From assembly GCA_020073165.1 (NCBI GenBank), contig JAIQFP010000005.1:124001-188000 (forward strand): DNA of 64,000 bases, written 5' to 3'. The notes beneath the pieces were generated by a model that saw only the letters and a program-made list of their open reading frames with translations, was not told the origin of the DNA and made no database searches. Every line of letters starts with the position of its first letter. Position 1 is the stretch's first letter. Of the stretch, positions 7,456-58,676 are shown in pieces. Origin of the DNA: Terriglobia bacterium. Lineage in GTDB: Bacteria; Acidobacteriota; Terriglobia; Terriglobales; Acidobacteriaceae. A program made the translations under genes and the position numbers.

Positions 7456-8067
7456 ATGCTATTCGAGGGCAAAGACCGCCGCGAACTGGAACAACTGATG
7501 AAGCGCGAGGGCCGCCTTCCTCCCGGCCAGTCGCTGACCCTGAAATGGCCGGTGCTGCATTACGGCTCGGTGCCGCGCTTCGACCCTCAGACCTGGGACT
7601 TCAAAGTCTACGGGCTGGTGGATTCTCCCCTGCGCCTCACCTGGGAAGAGTTCAACGCGCTGCCCAGGGTCCAGCGCACCAGCGATTTCCATTGCGTCAC
7701 CCGCTGGAGCCGCTTCAACAACCAATGGGATGGCGTTGCCTTTCGAGAGCTGCTTCAGCGCGCGCGTCCCAAGCCAGAAGCCACCTACTTGCTAGTGCAC
7801 GGAGAGCAGGGATTCACCGCCAACGTGCCGCTGGCCGATCTTGACCGCGAGGAAGTGTTGCTGGCGACGCACCATGACGGCCAGCCGCTTACGCCCGACC
7901 ACGGCTACCCGCTCCGCCTGATCGTGCCCCATCTCTATGCGTGGAAATCGGTGAAGTGGGTGCGCGGCCTGGAATTCCTCGACCACGACGCTGCCGGCTT
8001 CTGGGAGCAGAACGGCTACCACATGTACGGGGATCCCTGGAAGGAACAGAGGTTTGGGAGGCAGTAG
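7456..8067 (+). CDS. Sulfite-oxidase-like molybdopterin oxidoreductase, single domain
   Basis: This 203-residue protein covers only the molybdopterin-binding fold of the sulfite oxidase / MsrP (YedY) superfamily. Matching elements are the W..F.VYGLVDSPL strand, the cofactor Cys80 in DFHCVTRWS (the conserved Mo ligand position), and the DHGYPLRLIVPHLYAWKSVKWV block. The ATG at 7456 follows GAGGA with good spacing; the upstream TTG overlaps that site and is rejected. No Tat or Sec signal and no dimerisation domain is present, so it may act in the cytoplasm or be secreted with a partner. The substrate is unknown. It is likely controlled by the divergent ArsR protein. Confidence 0.88.
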   Translation: MLFEGKDRRELEQLMKREGRLPPGQSLTLKWPVLHYGSVPRFDPQTWDFKVYGLVDSPLRLTWEEFNALPRVQRTSDFHCVTRWSRFNNQWDGVAFRELLQRARPKPEATYLLVHGEQGFTANVPLADLDREEVLLATHHDGQPLTPDHGYPLRLIVPHLYAWKSVKWVRGLEFLDHDAAGFWEQNGYHMYGDPWKEQRFGRQ

Positions 8068-8122
8068 TCAGGAGTCAGCGCCGCCCATTCTCGCTGACTC
8101 CTGACTACCGACTCCTGACTAC
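8064..8122. repeat. Three copies of a 13-bp unit forming a hairpin between convergent genes
   Basis: The unit GTAGTCAGGAGTC occurs at 8064-8076 and, inverted, at 8096-8108 and 8110-8122. The first two are the outer parts of a perfect 17-bp inverted repeat (8064-8080 with 8092-8108, 11-base loop). The TAG stop of the oxidoreductase (8065-8067) and the TAG stop of the SPOR gene (8119-8121, minus strand) both lie inside copies of this unit. It could act as a bidirectional terminator, although no T-run follows. Confidence 0.8.
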
Positions 8123-8740: not shown

Positions 8741-8774
8741 TGGTAGGAGACGCTGCTTGCAGCGTCTCCTACCA
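8741..8774. repeat. Dispersed palindrome, copy 1 (16-bp perfect stem)
   Basis: TGGTAGGAGACGCTGC and its exact reverse complement are separated by only TT. This occupies the gap between slipin and the SPOR gene. It shares the core GAGACGC-NGC-TT-GCN-GCGTCTC with the copy at 18801-18822 and a decayed copy near 48322. The central stem pair is T-A here and A-T at 18801-18822, so pairing is preserved while sequence changes. Confidence 0.85.
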
Positions 8775-13053: not shown

Positions 13054-14247
13054 ATGAAAAAGCTCCTCTTACTGACACTCGTGATTCTGGCAAGTGCCGG
13101 GTTCGTCAACGCGCAAGTTAAAGGACACGTACTCATCCCGGATTCCAGCATCGCTCGGCCGGGGGATGCGGGCATCCGGGCCCACACCAACCATCTCATA
13201 TTTGTCCCTGACCAGGGAGACTCGACCTCACCGCAAGGCGAGACGCCTGCATCGTTGGGTTGCGTGTACGGACTGGTATCCAGTCCCAAGCCGGGTTGCC
13301 CAAAGACCACTTCAACCTCCAATCCCAGCGGCGGCAGCGGCCTGATTGTGATCGTGGACGCGTTTGATTACGCTTCAGCCGCGTCGGACCTGGCAACCTT
13401 CTCCAGCACGCTTGGACTGCCCGCACCAAAATTCCACGTCGCGTTTGCCTCAGGGAAACCGACTCCTGACTGTGGCTGGAACCAGGAAGCAGCACTGGAC
13501 ATCGAATGGTCCCACGCCATGGCGCCCAATGCCGTCATCGTTCTGATGGAAGCCAAGACGAACAGCACCAGCGATCTGATGAAAGCGGTGGACAAGGCCA
13601 ATTCGCTCATTGCAGCGCACGGGGGCAAGGGTGAAGTCTCAATGAGCTGGCAGAGCGGTGAGTTCTCGGGCGAAACCAGCCTGGACTCGCATTTCACCGG
13701 CTCCAACGTGGTGTACTTCGCCTCCAGCGGTGATTCCGGCGGAATCGTGGGATGGCCCAGCACTTCGGTGAATGTGGTGTCGGCCGGAGGCACGACCGTG
13801 CATCGTGACAGCAATGGCAATTTCACCAATGAGATCGCCTGGGCCGGAAGTGGCGGTGGTGACAGCACCATCGAGCTGCGGCCGACCTTCCAGGATGTCA
13901 TCCAGAACATCGTTGGCACCCACCGCGGTACACCGGACTTCTCGTTCGATGCGGATCCCAATACCGGAGTATCCGTCTACGAGACCTCTCCGGCTTGCGG
14001 CGGCAACGATAAGTGGCTGGTGTTCGGCGGTACCAGCGTGTCGTCACCGGCACTGGCGGGTGTAGTCAATTCCACGGGTTCGTTTAACGCCAGCAGCCAG
14101 GCGGAAAATACCGAGATCTACGGCAACATGGGTAACACCTCAGAGTTCACCGATATCAAAGCCGGGGTTTGTGGCAGTCATTCATCGGTGGCCGGTTGGG
14201 ACTTCTGCACTGGGGTGGGAAGCGACAAGGGCAAATCGGGGAAGTAG
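13054..14247 (+). CDS. Sedolisin-like (S53) secreted serine-carboxyl peptidase, copy 1
   Basis: This 397-residue protein has a signal peptide (MKKLLLLTLVILASAGFVNA). The sedolisin catalytic set is complete: Glu145 and Asp149 in EAALDIEWSHAMAP, oxyanion Asp227 in FASSGDSGG, and Ser328 in FGGTSVSSPALAGV. The core strand VIVDAFDYASAASDLATF matches the family start of the catalytic domain. Sedolisins normally carry a propeptide of roughly 150-200 residues; only about 80 residues precede the catalytic core here, so the activation domain is absent or replaced. The C-terminal GWDFCTGVGS is family-typical. The gene 375 bases downstream is a close paralogue. The enzyme probably degrades proteins outside the cell at acid pH. 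Confidence 0.88.
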   Translation: MKKLLLLTLVILASAGFVNAQVKGHVLIPDSSIARPGDAGIRAHTNHLIFVPDQGDSTSPQGETPASLGCVYGLVSSPKPGCPKTTSTSNPSGGSGLIVIVDAFDYASAASDLATFSSTLGLPAPKFHVAFASGKPTPDCGWNQEAALDIEWSHAMAPNAVIVLMEAKTNSTSDLMKAVDKANSLIAAHGGKGEVSMSWQSGEFSGETSLDSHFTGSNVVYFASSGDSGGIVGWPSTSVNVVSAGGTTVHRDSNGNFTNEIAWAGSGGGDSTIELRPTFQDVIQNIVGTHRGTPDFSFDADPNTGVSVYETSPACGGNDKWLVFGGTSVSSPALAGVVNSTGSFNASSQAENTEIYGNMGNTSEFTDIKAGVCGSHSSVAGWDFCTGVGSDKGKSGK

Positions 14248-14326
14248 CTAGAGTTGCTCACGCAACGGGGCCAAAGTGATGGCTGAAATACGGTGTGGCG
14301 AGCCAGGCAGCACAACAACGAACCCT

Positions 14327-14621
14327 AGTAGTAGTGTCCTGTCTGCCATATTGTTTTGCGGCCTGTTAAGGATTGGCCTCCAAGATAGGTAGAGGCGGAA
14401 GGCCCATTAGGGTGCTCCTCTGGTGGGCCTTCGGCCGCAACACAGGAACGTCAGACCCGCCCTCCCGCACAACCCCAGGACGAACTACGGGTGGCCCAGG
14501 AGTGGACTGATTCAATTTCATAGGTGGCTTACTTGGGATGTTCACGTGGAGGCGTACTCGCCGATTCTAGGCTTTATCGCGGACTCATTTAACCCAGCTC
14601 AAGCAAGGAGAACCTCGCAAA
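14327..14621 (+). promoter_or_regulatory. Leader of second sedolisin gene, with hairpin
   Basis: The region carries the same two conserved blocks as the leader of copy 1: block 1 at 14327-14400, and block 2 from about 14543 to the ATG with CTTTATCGCGGACT and AAGGAGAAC. The longer spacer contains a 9-bp stem (GAAGGCCCA 14398-14406 with TGGGCCTTC 14424-14432) directly after block 1. No open frame here looks real. It may be a regulatory leader or a remnant of the tandem duplication. Confidence 0.5.
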
Positions 14622-15824
14622 ATGAAGAAATATTCAATCCTGTTGTTGGCGCTTGTGGTCGTCGCAAGTGTCAGCTTTGCAGGCGCACAAGCCCAGAAGG
14701 GAACCATCATCGTCCCCGAGTCCAGCAGAACTACGATGGAAAACCTGTATGGTCTGAGCGCGCACACCAACCATTTGATCTATTTCGTGCCGGGCGGCGA
14801 CTCCTCCACCCCCCAGGGAGAAACTCCGGCCTCTCTGGGTTGCGTCTACGGCCTGGTGAAGAGCCCCTTGCCGGGATGCCCGAAGAAGACTTCCACCTCG
14901 AACCCGCAGGGCGGCAGCGGCGTCATCGTAATCGTGGACGCCTTTGACTACCCCACAGCGGCGGCGGATCTCGCGACTTTCTCCACCGCCTTTGGTTTGC
15001 CTGCTCCCAAGTTCCACGTTGCGTTCGCCAATGGCAAGCCGAGTCAGGACTGTGGATGGAACGAGGAAGCCGCTCTGGACATCGAGTGGGCGCATGCCAT
15101 GGCTCCTAACGCCACGATCGTGCTGATGGAAGCCAAGACCAACGGCACTACCGACCTGTTTGCTGCGGTCGACAAAGCCAACCAGATTATCGCGGCGCAC
15201 GGCGGCAAGGGCGAAGTCTCCATGAGTTGGGGCTACGGCAGCGACTTCTCCGGCGAGACCAGCCTGGATTCGCACTTCATGCAGTCGGGTGTGGTTTACT
15301 TTTCGTCCAGTGGCGACGCGGGTGGCATCGCCCAGTATCCCAGCACCTCTCCTTTCGTAGTGTCGGTGGGGGGAACCCGGGTGAACCGCGACAGCCAGGG
15401 CAACTTCACCAATGAAACAGCCTGGAGCGGCAGCGGCGGAGGGCCCAGCACGATCGAGCCCCGGCCTGCTTTTCAGGATGTGATCCAGAACATCGTTGGC
15501 ACCAAGCGCGGCACGCCCGACTATTCCTTTGACGGCGATCCGGGCACAGGAGTGTCGGTTTTCATTAGCGCTCCCGGGTGCAACCTCCAGTGGTCTATTT
15601 TCGGCGGAACCAGCGTGGGTACGCCCGCGCTGGCCGGCGTCGTGAATTCCACCCACCAATTCAAGAGCAGCAGCCAGGATGAGAACACCTTGATCTACAG
15701 CAACCTGGGCAACGCGGCCGACTTCAATGACATCACTTCCGGCTCGTGCGGCGGCAGGACATCGGCGGCAGGCTGGGACTTCTGCACTGGGGTAGGAAGC
15801 ACCCACGGCAGAGCAGGCAAGTAG
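14622..15824 (+). CDS. Sedolisin-like (S53) secreted serine-carboxyl peptidase, copy 2
   Basis: This 400-residue paralogue of the preceding gene aligns along its whole length, including the signal peptide (MKKYSILLLALVVVASVSFAGA). The catalytic set is again intact: Glu149/Asp153 (EAALDIEWAHAMAP), Asp232 (SSGDAGG) and Ser331 (FGGTSVGTPALAGV). It too lacks a full-length propeptide. The AAGGAG site lies 11 bases before the ATG. Both copies read through the same PQGETPASLGCVYGLV motif just before the catalytic domain, a family-specific segment that could replace the propeptide. A strong terminator follows 26 bases after the stop, so the pair is a self-contained tandem locus. Duplication followed by divergence is inferred. 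Confidence 0.88.
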   Translation: MKKYSILLLALVVVASVSFAGAQAQKGTIIVPESSRTTMENLYGLSAHTNHLIYFVPGGDSSTPQGETPASLGCVYGLVKSPLPGCPKKTSTSNPQGGSGVIVIVDAFDYPTAAADLATFSTAFGLPAPKFHVAFANGKPSQDCGWNEEAALDIEWAHAMAPNATIVLMEAKTNGTTDLFAAVDKANQIIAAHGGKGEVSMSWGYGSDFSGETSLDSHFMQSGVVYFSSSGDAGGIAQYPSTSPFVVSVGGTRVNRDSQGNFTNETAWSGSGGGPSTIEPRPAFQDVIQNIVGTKRGTPDYSFDGDPGTGVSVFISAPGCNLQWSIFGGTSVGTPALAGVVNSTHQFKSSSQDENTLIYSNLGNAADFNDITSGSCGGRTSAAGWDFCTGVGSTHGRAGK

Positions 15825-15850
15825 GTAGCTAGCCGTTCTTGTATTATTGG

Positions 15851-18047: not shown

Positions 18048-19742
18048 TTGAGGTGCGAGCAGGCGTTGGACTCGAAAGTTCCGTCAGCCGAACACGGTGC
18101 GGAAGGCACGGCTCAGGCCGGGCTGAAACGGCCTCCAGTCGAGGTCTCCGTCGGCTCCGCGTCCACTCCGGCCTGGTTTCGCTTTCTGGCGCCTTCTGTC
18201 GCCGACCTCATTTTCCTCATCCTTCTCATTGCCCTGACATACGGCGCTCTTGCGCCCAAGCTGCTGGGCGATGCCGGAACCGGCTGGCACATCCGCGATG
18301 GGCAGCGCATCCTCGCAACGCACTCCTTGCCCCGCACCGACTCATTCTCCTCCACCATGAGCGGACACCCGTGGTACGCCTGGGAATGGCTTTTCGACCT
18401 GGCCATCGCCGGCATTCATCACTGGATGGGACTGAACGGCGTGGTCTTCTTCACCGCCCTCGCGATCGCCGCGGTGTTCGCCTTGCTGTTCCGCTTCACC
18501 GTCGAGCTCGGGGGGAGCCTGCCCGTCACCGTCGTCCTGCTGGTGCTTTCGATTGGCGCCTCCACCATTCATCTTTTCGCCCGCCCGCACGTTCTGAGCT
18601 GGCTTCTTGCCCTAATCTGGTTTCGCGTGCTGGATTCCTCGGAGAGCGCCGCTACCGGGAAGGGCCATCGCTTGTTCTGGCTGCCCGTCCTGATGCTCCT
18701 CTGGGCCAATGTACACGGGGGATTTCTGCAAGGCTTCGCGCTGTTAGGCCTTTACCTGGCCGGAGGGGCAATCGAGCGCTTCGTATCCCGCCCCTCTGTA
18801 GAGACGCAGCTTGCTGCGTCTCCTGCCGGAGGCCGGCAGACCATTGCCAATCGCCTGAAGCATCTGCTCATGATAACCGCGCTGGCGCTGCTGGCTAGTC
18901 TGGTTAACCCGTATGGCTACAAGCTGCACGTCCACGTCTATCAGTATCTGACCAACCGTTTCCTGATGAACCACATCGACGAGTTTCTCTCGCCGAACTT
19001 TCACGGCGTGGCCCAGCAGTGTTTCGCGGTACTCCTGCTGATCACGATCCTCGCGCTGGCCAGTGCGCGCACCAGGCTCCGGCCCACGCATCTGCTGGTG
19101 ATTCTCTTTGCTGCCTACAGCGGCCTCTACGCGTCGCGCAATCTGCCTACATCCTCGATTCTTCTGACCCTGATTGTGGCCCCGATCCTGTCACAAACGA
19201 TCGCCGCGGGCGGCGGGCGCCCGGCCTGGATGCAACGCTGCCTCTCCCGCATGCACTCTTTTTCCGAGCGCATGGACAACATGGAGTTCCGCCTTCGGGG
19301 CCACCTCTGGCCGGTTGCCTTGACCGTTTTCGGATTCGCTGTCTGCCTGCACCAGGGCCGCCTGGGGTCGCGCCAGATCATGGACGCTCAGTTCGACGCC
19401 AAGCGTTTTCCCGTGCAGGCGGTGAACGTAATCGCCCAGCGTGGCCTCCGCGCCCCCGTCTTCGCTCCCGACTACTGGGGCGGCTACCTGATCTACCGCC
19501 TCTACCCGCAAACGCAGGTGGTCGTAGACGACCGCCACGACTTATATGGCGAGCAATTCTTAAAGGATTACTTGAGGGTCACCCACGTTGCTCCCGGCTG
19601 GGACAGAGTGCTCGACGAAAAGCACGTCGCCTTGGTGCTCACCCCGACGGAGTCATCACTGGCCAACATTCTGAGGGAAACAGCGGGGTGGCAGATTACG
19701 TACGAGGACAAAGTGGCGGTGCTATTCGAACGGAGCAAGTAA
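18048..19742 (+). CDS. Large polytopic membrane protein, GT-C-like, with in-frame palindromic insert
   Basis: This 564-residue protein has about 10-12 membrane helices. An N-terminal loop carries DAGTGWHIRDGQRIL and TDSFSSTMSGHPWYAWEWL. A C-terminal soluble part carries DYWGGYLIYRLYPQ and DDRHDLYGEQFL. Both motif sets recur in the protein at 32327-33787, so they form one family, resembling GT-C glycosyltransferases in topology. A palindrome (18801-18822) is translated in frame as ETQLAAS within a loop absent from the paralogue. The TTG start at 18048 is the only reasonable one in the frame and has no strong ribosome site, so the N-terminus is uncertain. The substrate is unknown; lipid-linked sugar transfer is a guess. 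Confidence 0.75.
   Translation: MRCEQALDSKVPSAEHGAEGTAQAGLKRPPVEVSVGSASTPAWFRFLAPSVADLIFLILLIALTYGALAPKLLGDAGTGWHIRDGQRILATHSLPRTDSFSSTMSGHPWYAWEWLFDLAIAGIHHWMGLNGVVFFTALAIAAVFALLFRFTVELGGSLPVTVVLLVLSIGASTIHLFARPHVLSWLLALIWFRVLDSSESAATGKGHRLFWLPVLMLLWANVHGGFLQGFALLGLYLAGGAIERFVSRPSVETQLAASPAGGRQTIANRLKHLLMITALALLASLVNPYGYKLHVHVYQYLTNRFLMNHIDEFLSPNFHGVAQQCFAVLLLITILALASARTRLRPTHLLVILFAAYSGLYASRNLPTSSILLTLIVAPILSQTIAAGGGRPAWMQRCLSRMHSFSERMDNMEFRLRGHLWPVALTVFGFAVCLHQGRLGSRQIMDAQFDAKRFPVQAVNVIAQRGLRAPVFAPDYWGGYLIYRLYPQTQVVVDDRHDLYGEQFLKDYLRVTHVAPGWDRVLDEKHVALVLTPTESSLANILRETAGWQITYEDKVAVLFERSK
18801..18822. repeat. Dispersed palindrome, copy 2, inside a coding sequence
   Basis: GAGACGCAGC-TT-GCTGCGTCTC is a perfect 10-bp stem with a 2-base loop, located inside the 18048-19742 reading frame. 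It has the same core as the copy at 8741-8774 but with the central pair switched from T-A to A-T. The surrounding residues form an extra loop relative to the paralogue at 32327-33787. Confidence 0.85.
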
Positions 19743-32326: not shown

Positions 32327-33787
32327 TCACCGGTTCCGCACCAAAATCACGGCCTGCGCATCCCCGTAAACCTGCTTCCACCCTGGCTGTGCCCGCAGCG
32401 CCGTAACCAGAGGTGCGGCCGGCGGAAGAACTACAGTGCGGATCTGCCAGCGCTCCAATTCCTGCCGCCAGCCCCCGGTCAGGTAGTAAGTCGCAGCAAA
32501 CTTTTCCATGAAGGCATCCCCATAAAGGTCTGCCCGGCCGTCGATGTAGACCCGGTATTCGGGATACAGCTTCCAGATGAAATATCCGCCCCAATTGTAG
32601 TGGTTCAAGATTGGCCCGGGAGGCCGCCGCGCCTCCAGAAAGGCCACTGCTGCGGCAGGAAAATTCTCGGCTTCCTTCTCGTCCTGATGCCTCGCCACAT
32701 AGCTCGGTCGGGCCACGGCGAAAACGAGAATCGCCGCCAGCAGGCCGGCATTCACCAGCGTCTTTCCGGGAAAAGGGCGCGTTCGCGCCGAGTCCAGCCA
32801 CGCCCGGCCGCGGCCCTCCACCAAAGCTTGCACCAGCCGGGAGAGGATCGGGGCCGCTACCAACACGTAGATCGCGATGTGCCGTACCGAGCGCAGCGCC
32901 GCCGCCGTCATCACCAGCAGCAAGAGCATCTCGCGCGGACGCACACGCCGCGGCATGAACCCCAACCCCGCTGTGGTCGCGAGCATCATCAGGAGAACCG
33001 CCAAAAATCTTCCCTGGTGGAAATTAGGGGAAGCCCATTCGGCAATGTATTGCAGCATGGCGCGAGAATGCAGTGTCTGGAACGGGTAGACATACATCCC
33101 CACCCCATTGGGGTTGAGCGGAACCAGCGCCACGCACGCCGCCATCACCATCGCCAGCTTGCGCAGGCGCGGCCTCATCTGCGCCCACGTTTCCACCCCA
33201 AACGCAACATCCAATGTGCCCCCCACCAGAAAAAGCCCCAGCAGCGCGATGCCAAGCGCGTATTCGGCATGCAGGTTTACCCAGAGCATCGTCAGAGGCG
33301 GCGTCCACCACAACCAGTTGGGGTGGACATCCGAGTGCTCGAGGATCACAAGAAAGATGCTGGCCAGCAGAAGAGAAAGCATCAGCGGACGTACGCCCCA
33401 AAAGGGCAGGGATGCGAACGCGGCCCACACGGTTATGGCTCCGGCAACATAGGGGCGCCCAGCGCAGCGCCCAAACAATAGCAGCAGCGTGGCTGCGGTG
33501 ATCACGCCGAAAACCACAATCAATCCACCCCAGCCGCTAACGCAATACAGGTTGTAGATCAGAACATCCGACAGCCACTCATGAGCCACCCAGGGCTGAC
33601 CGGACCGGGTGTAGGAATAGGGATCGGTGTGGGGCACGCTGTGGCTTGCCGTGATCAATTGCCCGGTGCGCAGGTGCCACCACGCGTCCGGATCAGTCAT
33701 GCCGCGCGCGGCCATGGCAAACAGCCCCAGCGCCAGCACCAGGACAAAGACTCGCCGCGTCTCCAGCCATGCCGTCACGTTGACCAT
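32327..33787 (-). CDS. Polytopic membrane protein of the same family as 18048-19742
   Basis: This 486-residue protein has about 10-11 membrane helices. The first extracytoplasmic loop has TDPDAWWHLRTGQLI and TDPYSYTRSGQPWVAHEWL. The C-terminal soluble segment has YNWGGYFIWKLYPE and DGRADLYGDAF. Both pairs are shared with the gene at 18048, including the order and the spacing to the helices. This copy lacks the palindrome-encoded loop. Acidic residues in the first loop after a helix are typical of GT-C glycosyltransferases, so a lipid-linked sugar donor is possible but unproven. It is divergent from a GT87-like gene at 33863, with 75 bases between starts. Confidence 0.8.
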   Translation of the reverse strand: MVNVTAWLETRRVFVLVLALGLFAMAARGMTDPDAWWHLRTGQLITASHSVPHTDPYSYTRSGQPWVAHEWLSDVLIYNLYCVSGWGGLIVVFGVITAATLLLLFGRCAGRPYVAGAITVWAAFASLPFWGVRPLMLSLLLASIFLVILEHSDVHPNWLWWTPPLTMLWVNLHAEYALGIALLGLFLVGGTLDVAFGVETWAQMRPRLRKLAMVMAACVALVPLNPNGVGMYVYPFQTLHSRAMLQYIAEWASPNFHQGRFLAVLLMMLATTAGLGFMPRRVRPREMLLLLVMTAAALRSVRHIAIYVLVAAPILSRLVQALVEGRGRAWLDSARTRPFPGKTLVNAGLLAAILVFAVARPSYVARHQDEKEAENFPAAAVAFLEARRPPGPILNHYNWGGYFIWKLYPEYRVYIDGRADLYGDAFMEKFAATYYLTGGWRQELERWQIRTVVLPPAAPLVTALRAQPGWKQVYGDAQAVILVRNR

Positions 33788-48298: not shown

Positions 48299-48321
48299 GC
48301 TGATCCGCAGCCCCGCTGTGT

Positions 48322-48345
48322 AGAGACGCAGGTTGCCGCGTCTCT
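48322..48345. repeat. Dispersed palindrome, copy 3 (partly decayed)
   Basis: AGAGACGC pairs with GCGTCTCT across an 8-base centre AGGTTGCC, which is the core of the other two palindromes with two altered positions. It lies between the zinc-ribbon protein and the end of pyrF. Confidence 0.7.
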
Positions 48346-48362: not shown

Positions 48363-49091
48363 TCAGTAGTTTGCCACCGGCTGCACCGAAGCCCGGCTGA
48401 TTTCCCCCAGAATCTCCCGCGCTTCAGCCGCCGGATCCTCCGCCCCGGTGATCGGGCGGCCCACCACGATGTGACTAGCCCCGGCTGCAATGGCTTCTGC
48501 GGGCGTGACCACACGCACTTGATCACCGTAGCCGGCACCTGCGGGACGTACTCCCGGGGTAACGATGGCGAAGTCGCTTCCCAGTTCATGGCGCAGCTCG
48601 GAGGCCTCGCGAGCGGAGGTAACCACGCCGTGACATCCACTGGCCAGCGCCAGCGCACCCAGGCGCAGCACCTGGTCCACTACCCGGCCGTGAACCCCGA
48701 GTCTGTCGAGATCACTATCGTCAAGGCTGGTGAGTACCGTCACTGCGAGCACCATCAGGGCAGGGTTGACCTTCCGGGCAGCGTCGGTGGCCGCCCGCAG
48801 CATGGCGCCGCCACCTGAGGCATGCACCGTTAACATGCTGACCCCGAGCTGCGCCGCTTCGCGGACGGCTGCGGCCACAGTGTTGGGGATGTCGTGGTAT
48901 TTCAGGTCAAGGAAGACGCGGCGCCCCGACGCGATCAAATCGCGCACTACCTGTGGCCCCTCGGCAGTGTAGAGCTGCATCCCCACCTTGTAGGTGGAAG
49001 CAGACTCCCCCACGGCGGCGACAATCTTATGGGCTGCGGCCGCCGACGACACGTCCAAGGCAATGATGAGGCGCTGGCGCGCATCGCTCAT
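48363..49091 (-). CDS. pyrF: Orotidine 5'-phosphate decarboxylase
   Basis: This 242-residue protein catalyses the last step of UMP synthesis. The active-site cluster is in FLDLKYHDIPNTV (the D-K-x-x-D motif). The start RLIIALDVSSAAAA and the phosphate-binding ending IVVGRPITGAEDPAAEA are also family-typical. The TPGVRPAGAGYGDQVRV loop completes the phosphate grip. The ATG at 49091 begins 25 bases after the rlpA-like gene ends, on the same strand. A copy of the dispersed palindrome sits just beyond its stop. Confidence 0.96.
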   Translation of the reverse strand: MSDARQRLIIALDVSSAAAAHKIVAAVGESASTYKVGMQLYTAEGPQVVRDLIASGRRVFLDLKYHDIPNTVAAAVREAAQLGVSMLTVHASGGGAMLRAATDAARKVNPALMVLAVTVLTSLDDSDLDRLGVHGRVVDQVLRLGALALASGCHGVVTSAREASELRHELGSDFAIVTPGVRPAGAGYGDQVRVVTPAEAIAAGASHIVVGRPITGAEDPAAEAREILGEISRASVQPVANY

Positions 49092-56237: not shown

Positions 56238-58676
56238 TCACCGCGCCACTCTTTGGTTGAGCGGTGGCGCGTGATTAGGGTTGAAGTGGCTGTCGCCGGA
56301 GTAAGTCGCGGTGATCCGGTGTTTGCCTGCACTGAGTGATGAGGTAATAAAGTGCGCGCGATCCTCCCGCAGTGTCAGCGTGGCCAGAACCGTGAGGCCG
56401 TCCTTCAAGGTGACTGTGCCGCTGGGCATAGGTTGAGCCGGCAAACTCGCGGTCACCGAAACCACAAAGGTCACGGCCTGGCCCTGCTTGGAAGGATTCG
56501 GCGAACTAGTCAGCTTGATGAAGCTTCCGCCGGTGTTGAGCAGGACGCTTACCCCGCCAGTCGTTCCCGCGATATCCGGGGCGCCGTCATGGTTGAAGTC
56601 GTCTACCACCAGTGTGCTCGAGTAACTTTCCACTGCGTAATCAACTGCCGATTGGAAGGTTCCGTCGCCGTGGCCTATTAGGACGCTGACTGCAGCAAGC
56701 GTGCCCAAAGCCAAGTCTAACTTGCCATCGCCGTTAAAGTCTCCCGTGGCGATTGAGACTGCAATTCCTGTCGGATATACGACAGGGGCTTGAAACGTGC
56801 CATCGCCATTGCCCAGCAAGACAGCTGCGCCGCTATCCGTCACCACCGCCATGTCCAGCTTGCCATCTGCGTTGAAATCGCCAACGGCGATCTTGTAAGG
56901 ATTATTACCTGCGGTGGCGTCCATATACGCTTGGAAGGTTCCGTCGCCGTTCCCCAGAAGTATGCTTACGGTCGTGCCGGGTGTCCCATACCCAAAATTG
57001 GAAACCGCCAAGTCGAGCTTCCCATCGCCATTGAAATCCGCTATCGCAACGTATGCCGGATTAAATCCGGCATCGAATGCGACCGGCGACTGGAAGGAGC
57101 CGTCACCCTGGCCGAGCAGTATGCTGACCGTGCCGTTGCCAGTCTGCATCCCATTGGCGACCGCGAGGTCTAACTTTCCATCTCGATTCAGGTCGCCCAC
57201 CGCTGCGGACTCAGGGCTGCTTCCTGCCGGATAACTAAGCTCTGTCTGAAATGTCCCGTCGCCATTGCCCAGCAGGATGCTTACCGTATCCCCGTCGAGA
57301 TTCGCCGTCACCAGGTCCTGTTTGCCATCGCGATTGAAGTCTGCCACCGCCACTGACTGGGCCTTACTTCCCGCCTCGTAATCGACGCTCTTCTGAAAGG
57401 TGCCATCGCCGTTGCCGAGGAGTACGCTCGCGCTTGCAGAACTGGCGGGGTTGGAGGTCACCAGGTCAGGCTTGCCGTCCAAGTTGAAGTCGCCTGCCGC
57501 CAAGCCGAAAGCATAGCTGTCTGACGCAGTCGGATAGTCGGCCTGAGCCAGGAACGTGCCGTTGCCATTGCCCAGCAGCACGCTCACCGACATGCTCCGT
57601 GCGTTGGCTACTGCCAAGTCCAGCTTGCCATCGGCGTTGAGATCGGCGGCGGCTATCGAGTAGGGGACGTGTCCTACTCCGTAGTCCATGGGTGGCTGGA
57701 AGGTGCCGTCGCCATTACCGGAAAATATGCTCACCGTGGTGCCGCCGCGATAGAAACCGGAATCGGCGACCGCCAGGTCGGGTTTCGCGTCGCCATTGAA
57801 GTCGCCGACTGCTACCCAGGCCGGACCGGACTGCACCCCGGGACTGACGTACGTGGGCGGCTGAAAGGTGCCATCGCCGTTGCCGAAGTGCAGAGCCACC
57901 GCACTGCCCGTGAAGTTTGCTACAACCAGATCGAGTTTGCCGTCACCATTCAGATCCGCAGCGCCGACAAAGACCGGAGTTTGGCCGGTGAAATACGAAA
58001 CTTGCTGGTTGAAGGTACCATCGCCCTTCCCAAGAAGAACGCTAATGCTGTTGCTGTCCTCTCCCGCTACCGCCAGATCTTGAATGTTGTCGCCGTTGAA
58101 GTCTGCGATGGCGACCGAGCCGGAGCCGGCACCCGTGGCGTAATCAACGTGCGGCTGAAATGTGCCGTCACCGTTGCCCAACAGGATGCTCACGGCGGCA
58201 GTGAGTTCGTCGGCCACCGCAAGGTCAGGGATGCCATCACGATTGAAATCGCCGGCCGCCACTCCGCCGGGCTGGTGGCCAACGGGATAGTCGACATGCG
58301 ACTGGAATGTGCCGTCGCCGTTGCCCAAGAGAATGCTTACTGTATTGCCCAGTTCATTAACCGATACCAGATCGAGCTTGCCGTCACGATTGAAATCGCC
58401 GACTGCCGCCAAGTCGGGCCCCTTCCCAGTCGCGTAGTCCATGTGCGCCTGGAAAGCGCCATCCCCATTGCCAAGGAGAACGCTGACCGTACTGCTGATG
58501 TTGTTGGCCACTACGAGATCGGGGATGCTATCGGCATTGACGTCTGCCATGACCACCGAGTGAGGCTGCGTCCCGGCGGTGTATTGCGGCGCCTCCAGAA
58601 ACTCGTTCTGCGCGGCAGCGAATGTCAGCAGTGAAATCGAAGCCAGCAAAGGGCCCCAAAGGTGGGTTGACTTCAT
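56238..58676 (-). CDS. Secreted FG-GAP/VCBS repeat protein with C-terminal Ig-like domain
   Basis: This 812-residue protein has a signal peptide (about 1-22, LLASISLLTFAAAQ). Thirteen to fourteen VCBS/FG-GAP repeats follow, each about 45-60 residues with the phrase DFNRDGKLDL and LLGNGDGTF; the Asp-rich loops bind calcium, as in integrin beta-propellers. The final 90 residues form an Ig-like domain (SPNPSKQGQAVTFVVSVTAS, GTVTLKDGLTVLATLTL, ITATYSGDSHFNPN). It is probably an exported adhesin or extracellular binding protein. The repeat DNA is itself highly periodic, which is why many antisense frames appear here. No LPXTG or PEP-CTERM sorting signal is visible at the C-terminus. Confidence 0.92.
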   Translation of the reverse strand: MKSTHLWGPLLASISLLTFAAAQNEFLEAPQYTAGTQPHSVVMADVNADSIPDLVVANNISSTVSVLLGNGDGAFQAHMDYATGKGPDLAAVGDFNRDGKLDLVSVNELGNTVSILLGNGDGTFQSHVDYPVGHQPGGVAAGDFNRDGIPDLAVADELTAAVSILLGNGDGTFQPHVDYATGAGSGSVAIADFNGDNIQDLAVAGEDSNSISVLLGKGDGTFNQQVSYFTGQTPVFVGAADLNGDGKLDLVVANFTGSAVALHFGNGDGTFQPPTYVSPGVQSGPAWVAVGDFNGDAKPDLAVADSGFYRGGTTVSIFSGNGDGTFQPPMDYGVGHVPYSIAAADLNADGKLDLAVANARSMSVSVLLGNGNGTFLAQADYPTASDSYAFGLAAGDFNLDGKPDLVTSNPASSASASVLLGNGDGTFQKSVDYEAGSKAQSVAVADFNRDGKQDLVTANLDGDTVSILLGNGDGTFQTELSYPAGSSPESAAVGDLNRDGKLDLAVANGMQTGNGTVSILLGQGDGSFQSPVAFDAGFNPAYVAIADFNGDGKLDLAVSNFGYGTPGTTVSILLGNGDGTFQAYMDATAGNNPYKIAVGDFNADGKLDMAVVTDSGAAVLLGNGDGTFQAPVVYPTGIAVSIATGDFNGDGKLDLALGTLAAVSVLIGHGDGTFQSAVDYAVESYSSTLVVDDFNHDGAPDIAGTTGGVSVLLNTGGSFIKLTSSPNPSKQGQAVTFVVSVTASLPAQPMPSGTVTLKDGLTVLATLTLREDRAHFITSSLSAGKHRITATYSGDSHFNPNHAPPLNQRVAR

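Follow-up and report, generated by a model that had tools for sequence, protein, structure and literature searches.

REP sequences were divided into a GTAG and a CGTC super-family by Di Nocera et al. 2013 (PMC3733652), who describe GTAG repeats flanking RAYT genes. The same survey reports REPs lying wholly inside ORFs in several species, Opitutus terrae (GTAG) and Rickettsia conorii (CGTC) having the largest numbers, regards loops and linkers as places that tolerate them, and mentions two Xanthomonas species in which two different REPs occupy approximately the same site of recB. RAYT genes are always flanked by two inverted REPs according to PMC2817692. A later classification (PMC6006769) distinguishes RAYT subclasses, places class 3 in some acidobacteria and describes in-frame REPs inside the RAYT genes themselves, and REP counts for three acidobacteria are given in PMC12306157; all four papers are cited here from excerpts. 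Among the listed titles and abstracts linking RAYTs or REPs to Acidobacteria, we saw no report of REPs within genes of this phylum.

In this study, we analyzed a 64,000-nucleotide stretch of an acidobacterial genome, which is called the window as a whole (G000:C13:124001-188000, where G000 is the window's own genome; G001 denotes a genome of the same genus). A palindrome inside a membrane-protein gene of the window is best read as a non-autonomous GTAG-type REP that was moved by a RAYT, landed in frame and then drifted, and we assign a probability of roughly 0.88 to this reading.

The repeat unit and its copies in the window

A perfect 22-bp palindrome, translated within the membrane protein as ETQLAAS plus flanks, was reported in the preliminary description, and its position, symmetry and open frame are confirmed here (Table 1). 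The GTA preceding the palindrome completes a GTAG foot, so that the unit extends to 25 nt, and this foot identifies the element as a GTAG-type REP. Folded as single-stranded DNA, the 25-mer is predicted to form a 9-bp stem with a 4-nt loop, leaving GTA unpaired, at -9.9 kcal/mol, a stability equalled by none of 200 shuffles.

The same core had been noted outside genes at 8741 and 48322. It was recovered as part of a larger palindrome starting at the former position and, in imperfect form, one nucleotide beyond the latter; both copies are intergenic as judged from ORFs and alignment. The first is situated between the end of a Band-7 gene and the likely ATG of a SPOR-domain gene, just upstream of the latter, and G001 has a copy at the same place. 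The second lies directly downstream of the OMP-decarboxylase gene 48363-49091 on the minus strand. With up to three mismatches allowed, the core has 3 matches in the window, whereas 100 shuffles averaged 0.20 and never attained that number. For a looser pattern with 2 mismatches, the window taken by itself gives no significant excess: 7 matches were counted against a mean of 3.84, and 11 of 100 shuffles had at least 7.

Further repeats of other kinds were observed in the window. An inverted repeat at 8057-8115, near the 8741 copy, has arms of 24 nt that are 92% complementary and separated by 11 nt, and possibly represents a second repeat family. At least 12 degenerate repeats, mostly spaced by 147-165 nt, occupy 56649-58497 within the minus-strand ORF 56238-58676, which suggests a repeat protein. 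Two stretches about 1580 nt apart within 13180-15828 are 72-78% identical piecewise and probably belong to adjacent paralogous genes.

Table 1. Features of the element, its host gene and the in-frame copies (positions refer to the window)
Feature	Position	Strand	Remarks
GTAG-type REP, 25 nt	18798..18822	+	Unpaired GTA foot and 22-bp perfect palindrome; read as VETQLAAS
Perfect palindrome GAGACGCAGCTTGCTGCGTCTC	18801..18822	.	22 bp
Second window copy, double-footed 34-bp palindrome	8741..8774	.	Core 8747-8768
Third window copy, imperfect palindrome	48320..48344	+	Core 48323-48344, one mismatch to the core
Host gene, membrane protein with several hydrophobic segments	18048..19742	+	Element at residues 251-259, in a hydrophilic stretch
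Paralogue without the element	32327..33787	-	35% identity; 12 residues shorter at the site, by eye
In-frame copy, membrane-protein gene 18048-19742			VETQLAAS
In-frame copy, CCA-adding enzyme			DAASCVST; PolyA_pol domain spans the element
In-frame copy, hydantoinase A			ETQQAASL
In-frame copy, winged-helix regulator			VETQLAAS, after the DNA-binding domain

The repeat family in the genome and its relatives

A genome-wide count of the core, as suggested in the preliminary description, gave 34 strict copies of GAGACG-N10-CGTCTC in G000 against 1 for the reversed control. The family is thereby a short palindrome with many dispersed copies, as described for GTAG REPs. GTA adjoins the palindrome at one end or both in 29 copies and at neither in 5, and the arm variants come in matched pairs (CAGC/GCTG, TTGC/GCAA and TAGC/GCTA). 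Dimers like those of GTAG REPs were also found, with copies paired in opposite orientation at the loci L005, L030 and L031. The flanks were tallied over 60 footed copies from G000 and G001, with 30 loci of G001 included. GTAG is preceded by CT in 28 of these copies and by CC in 16, C occurs at -2 in 80%, and a pyrimidine directly follows the palindrome in 90%.

The pattern GTAGAGACG-N10-CGTCTC is present in 12 of 61 related genomes, and the control has no match in any of the 61. Matches per genome range from a single one to 87 in G029, with 64 in G030 and 52 in G001; these figures are pattern matches, in which a double-footed copy counts as two. The stem interior differs in some of the 12 genomes, for example in G002. 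For about 18 of the 34 copies of G000, G001 has a copy at the corresponding place (15, 2 and 1 over three comparisons), an approximate count as the bases flanking the element align poorly at L010, L011, L293 and L298. No copy present in one of these two genomes and cleanly absent from the other with matching flanks was caught, and a 12.5-kb stretch was searched that has no syntenic counterpart in G001. REP copies were also observed in an apparent ribosomal-protein operon of G001 (L099, G001:C48), where one pair is shared with G000 (L005) and one further single copy occupies a spacer at which the G000 sequence is unrelated. A repeat of about 50 nt at L340:2950-3056, matching many places in G001, belongs to another family.

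These distributions bear on the idea that the palindrome is a binding site under selection, such as an operator or the site of an architectural protein, and not a mobile repeat. The perfect dyad symmetry, the sites shared between G000 and G001 and the copy just upstream of the SPOR-domain gene would all suit such a role. It is set against the foot found on one side in most copies, the paired variation of the arms, the patchy distribution over relatives, the copies inside coding loops and the transposase-like gene framed by inverted copies that is described below, and we consider a binding site unlikely.

Beyond these genomes, the exact 23-base core GTAGAGACGCAGCNNGCTGCGTCTC occurs in at least 109 stretches in contigs of other genomes. 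Among the 80 matches listed are records of Acidobacteria, Chloroflexi (Anaerolineales and Roseiflexaceae), Bacteroidales, Spirochaetota and Ignavibacteria, nearly all of them metagenome-assembled and with contigs that may be mis-binned. In the Spirochaetota record L213, a RAYT fragment stands beside the copy.

Insertion in the membrane-protein gene

The protein encoded by the host gene has no match in Pfam at E 0.1 and none in NCBIfam at E 1. The insertion had been placed in a loop between helices. Its site is indeed hydrophilic and variable in length, but the strong segments of the hydropathy scan end at residue 180 and resume at residue 318, with weaker hydrophobic runs on both sides seen only by eye. 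Since there is no strong membrane segment between these residues, the placement between helices is supported in part only. The paralogue had been described as about a dozen residues shorter there, in agreement with our count between matching hydrophobic stretches (Table 1).

The protein is matched in 32 of the 61 genomes, its own included. We compared the site in 16 loci, namely the gene itself and 15 homologues, of which the most distant are 32-33% identical and not all need be orthologues. Only the homologue from G001, which is 88% identical, carries the element residues; it reads VETQLAVS, and its DNA is still nearly palindromic, with 2 substitutions in the hairpin that affect both members of a single base pair. 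Outside the genus, the three nearest homologues (G010, G015 and G023) are without 10 residues at the site, and the site varies in length in the remaining ones. The inserted length amounts to 30 nt by the alignment gap and to 25 nt by the repeat, with outgroups that are only 53-58% identical. Because G001 keeps an altered copy and the nearest others lack the 10 residues, the element most likely entered the gene before G000 and G001 split, and the hairpin is decaying in G001, as judged from these sequences.

The preliminary description had reasoned that the same residues, carried by orthologues in many species without a palindrome in the DNA, would make the segment ancestral protein sequence. 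A protein segment whose DNA is palindromic by chance would indeed account for the nearly identical residues in the G001 homologue. These residues are absent from the site in the 14 other homologues, and the genome has 34 copies of the palindrome in unrelated contexts, with three reading frames used among the in-gene copies, so that an ancestral origin is very improbable.

Copies in other genes

In-gene copies are rare, and the family lies predominantly outside genes, as GTAG REPs do. Only 4 of the 34 copies in G000 fall in coding-like frames (Table 1), compared with 1934 of 3000 random positions of the window, a control that uses the training window itself. The underlying test is a codon-usage score trained on 32 long ORFs of the window, in which a single frame must be open and coding-like to either side of the copy, with a threshold of 0.03 that was set after the first scores had been seen. 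One further copy, at L013, is situated towards the 3' end of an ORF that encodes Fer4 and TPP-enzyme domains, and was left out of the in-gene count.

In G001, 1 of 29 copies tested passes, in the arginyl-tRNA synthetase (ArgRS) gene, next to or in the DALR domain; the 30 loci considered there left out the copies in the CCA-adding enzyme and the hydantoinase, both of which exist in G001. An insertion in ArgRS specific to G001 was rejected, as the ArgRS gene of G000 holds the same insert in a form 3 nt shorter, which escapes the strict pattern for this reason.

The sites in the CCA-adding enzyme and the hydantoinase also vary in length among relatives, the CCA-enzyme segment ranging from 37 to 69 residues over the 16 loci compared. 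Moreover, different palindromes occupy one and the same hydantoinase loop: in G000 and G001 it contains the GTAGAGACG element, in G019 (L335) a GCCCGGACG palindrome with a GTAG foot, and in G007 (L327) a GGCGCTTCAGCGCC palindrome.

Candidate mobilizer

By inspecting the DNA between inverted copies, we found in G029 (G029:C10) a RAYT-like protein of 179 aa, P0003, framed by inverted GTAGAGACGGGGC...GCCCCGTCTC. The DNA between the inverted copies at G001:C48 reads, by its translations, as a ribosomal-protein operon. P0003 possesses the RAYT motifs NHVH (HUH) and YIRRNP (with the catalytic Y), and its scores are below the curated cut-offs, with 17.8 against 23 for Pfam Y1_Tnp and 40.6 against 80 bits for NCBIfam REP_Tyr_transpos. 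Its relatives reach 56.4 and 68 of 80 for REP_Tyr_transpos, and 14.9 and 22.2 of 23 for Y1_Tnp.

A search with P0003 over the 61 genomes gave matches in three of them, G029, G030 and G055. The relative in G030 is broken, being split over different frames into two pieces and containing a stop; copies of GTAGAGACGTAGC in inverted orientation frame it. The relative in G055, a genome with no GTAGAGACG match, is 34% identical to P0003; it is flanked on either side by GTAGGGGCACGGC hairpins that share one orientation, and contains an inverted hairpin within its reading frame. A candidate cognate RAYT between two inverted copies was found only in the relatives G029 (intact) and G030 (broken), and the P0003 type occurs in 2 of the 12 REP-bearing genomes. 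In G000 and G001, no RAYT of this type was detected at E 0.001, and a three-row profile search of both genomes returned only weak matches to other RAYTs.

G000 has 6 matches to PF01797 and 7 to REP_Tyr_transpos (6 of the 7 were listed). The six PF01797 loci were rejected as mobilizers of the repeat: a hairpin scan with the known element as positive control revealed other hairpins or none beside them, and no GAGACG palindrome. The same outcome was obtained for the PF01797 (Y1_Tnp) and REP_Tyr_transpos loci of relatives among the matches listed (23, 20 and 14, in overlapping sets), which were judged on the palindrome scan alone, the open frames being wrong for some (for instance L074, L076 and L110). 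Other RAYT-type genes with different hairpins nearby were observed in G000 at L018, L020 and L021, those at L020 being CGCAG-type palindromes on both sides of the gene; several REP/RAYT families therefore seem to coexist in this genome. A RAYT relative from Ignavibacteria (L257) bears a REP-like palindrome in frame inside itself, as is described for subclass 2.4 in the excerpts of PMC6006769.

The framing of P0003 and its broken relative suggests that the mobilizer of the repeat is likely a RAYT. As no RAYT of the P0003 type was detected in G000, the copies there look like relics, and its loss in the genus of G000 and G001 would be the most economical reading. A divergent, undetected RAYT in the two genomes is possible too, since most REP-bearing relatives have no detectable one.

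A model for in-frame insertion

In the preferred reading, a RAYT, as a Y1/HUH single-strand transposase, would recognize the GTAG foot together with the hairpin in single-stranded DNA and transfer the 25-mer to sites flanked by pyrimidines, where GTAG is mostly preceded by CT or CC. The candidate substrate would be single-stranded GTAGAGACGCAGCTTGCTGCGTCTC preceded by CT or CC. As five of its six frames are free of stops by inspection, a 25-mer that lands in frame within a gene would be translated into a short peptide, provided that the gene product is made. Copies in tolerant, length-variable loops, where the added peptide is presumably neutral, would survive selection. One such copy would have been inserted into the membrane-protein gene before G000 and G001 split; as selection would act on the protein only, its hairpin would then drift through point changes or indels that keep the frame.

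The history of this insertion can be ordered, with entry before the G000/G001 split followed by drift of the hairpin with the frame kept, and the hypothesis of neutral loops becomes testable. REP insertions that can be translated have been known best from Rickettsia and certain other bacteria; they are found here in an acidobacterium as well, including its core translation enzymes, and the repeat is tied to one RAYT type in relatives. More tentatively, REP insertion may be a recurrent source of new loops in acidobacterial core proteins, with tolerant loops colonized independently by different REP families. It is equally tentative that the REP/RAYT system may cross phyla, as suggested by the exact core in records labelled Chloroflexi, Bacteroidales, Spirochaetota and Ignavibacteria.

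Comparison with known systems

The RAYT/TnpA-REP subclasses 2.4 and 2.7 (excerpts of PMC6006769) resemble the present system in having genes flanked by canonical or double-foot GT[AG]G REPs, and differ in that a detectable RAYT of this type is absent from the window's own genome.

A likeness to the in-frame insertions of Rickettsia was proposed in the preliminary description. It holds for the outcome, as in-frame palindromes inside unrelated proteins are seen in both, but not for the family. The excerpts of PMC3733652 describe CGTC-tagged short repeats or the longer RPE-1 in Rickettsia, and put the intragenic short repeats of R. conorii in the CGTC class, apparently without a dedicated transposase, whereas the present element has a GTAG foot and RAYT framing in relatives; the two are set apart by these descriptions. 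A Rickettsia-type palindromic element (RPE) in the strict sense, whether transferred or convergent, is accordingly highly improbable.

The closest likeness is to the GTAG super-family as described in the excerpts of PMC3733652, which shares the GTAG foot, a stem of 6-13 bp, a short loop and complementary arm variants, as well as dimers of both kinds and a mostly intergenic location with some copies in frame in genes, including tRNA synthetases. The host here is an acidobacterium, whereas acidobacteria enter that survey through Koribacter, with TIR-framed transposases. What is new in this study is the comparison of orthologues, the frame usage and the reuse of loops. The in-frame GTAG REP itself is of a known kind, since intragenic in-frame GTAG REPs have already been described in other bacteria (PMC3733652).
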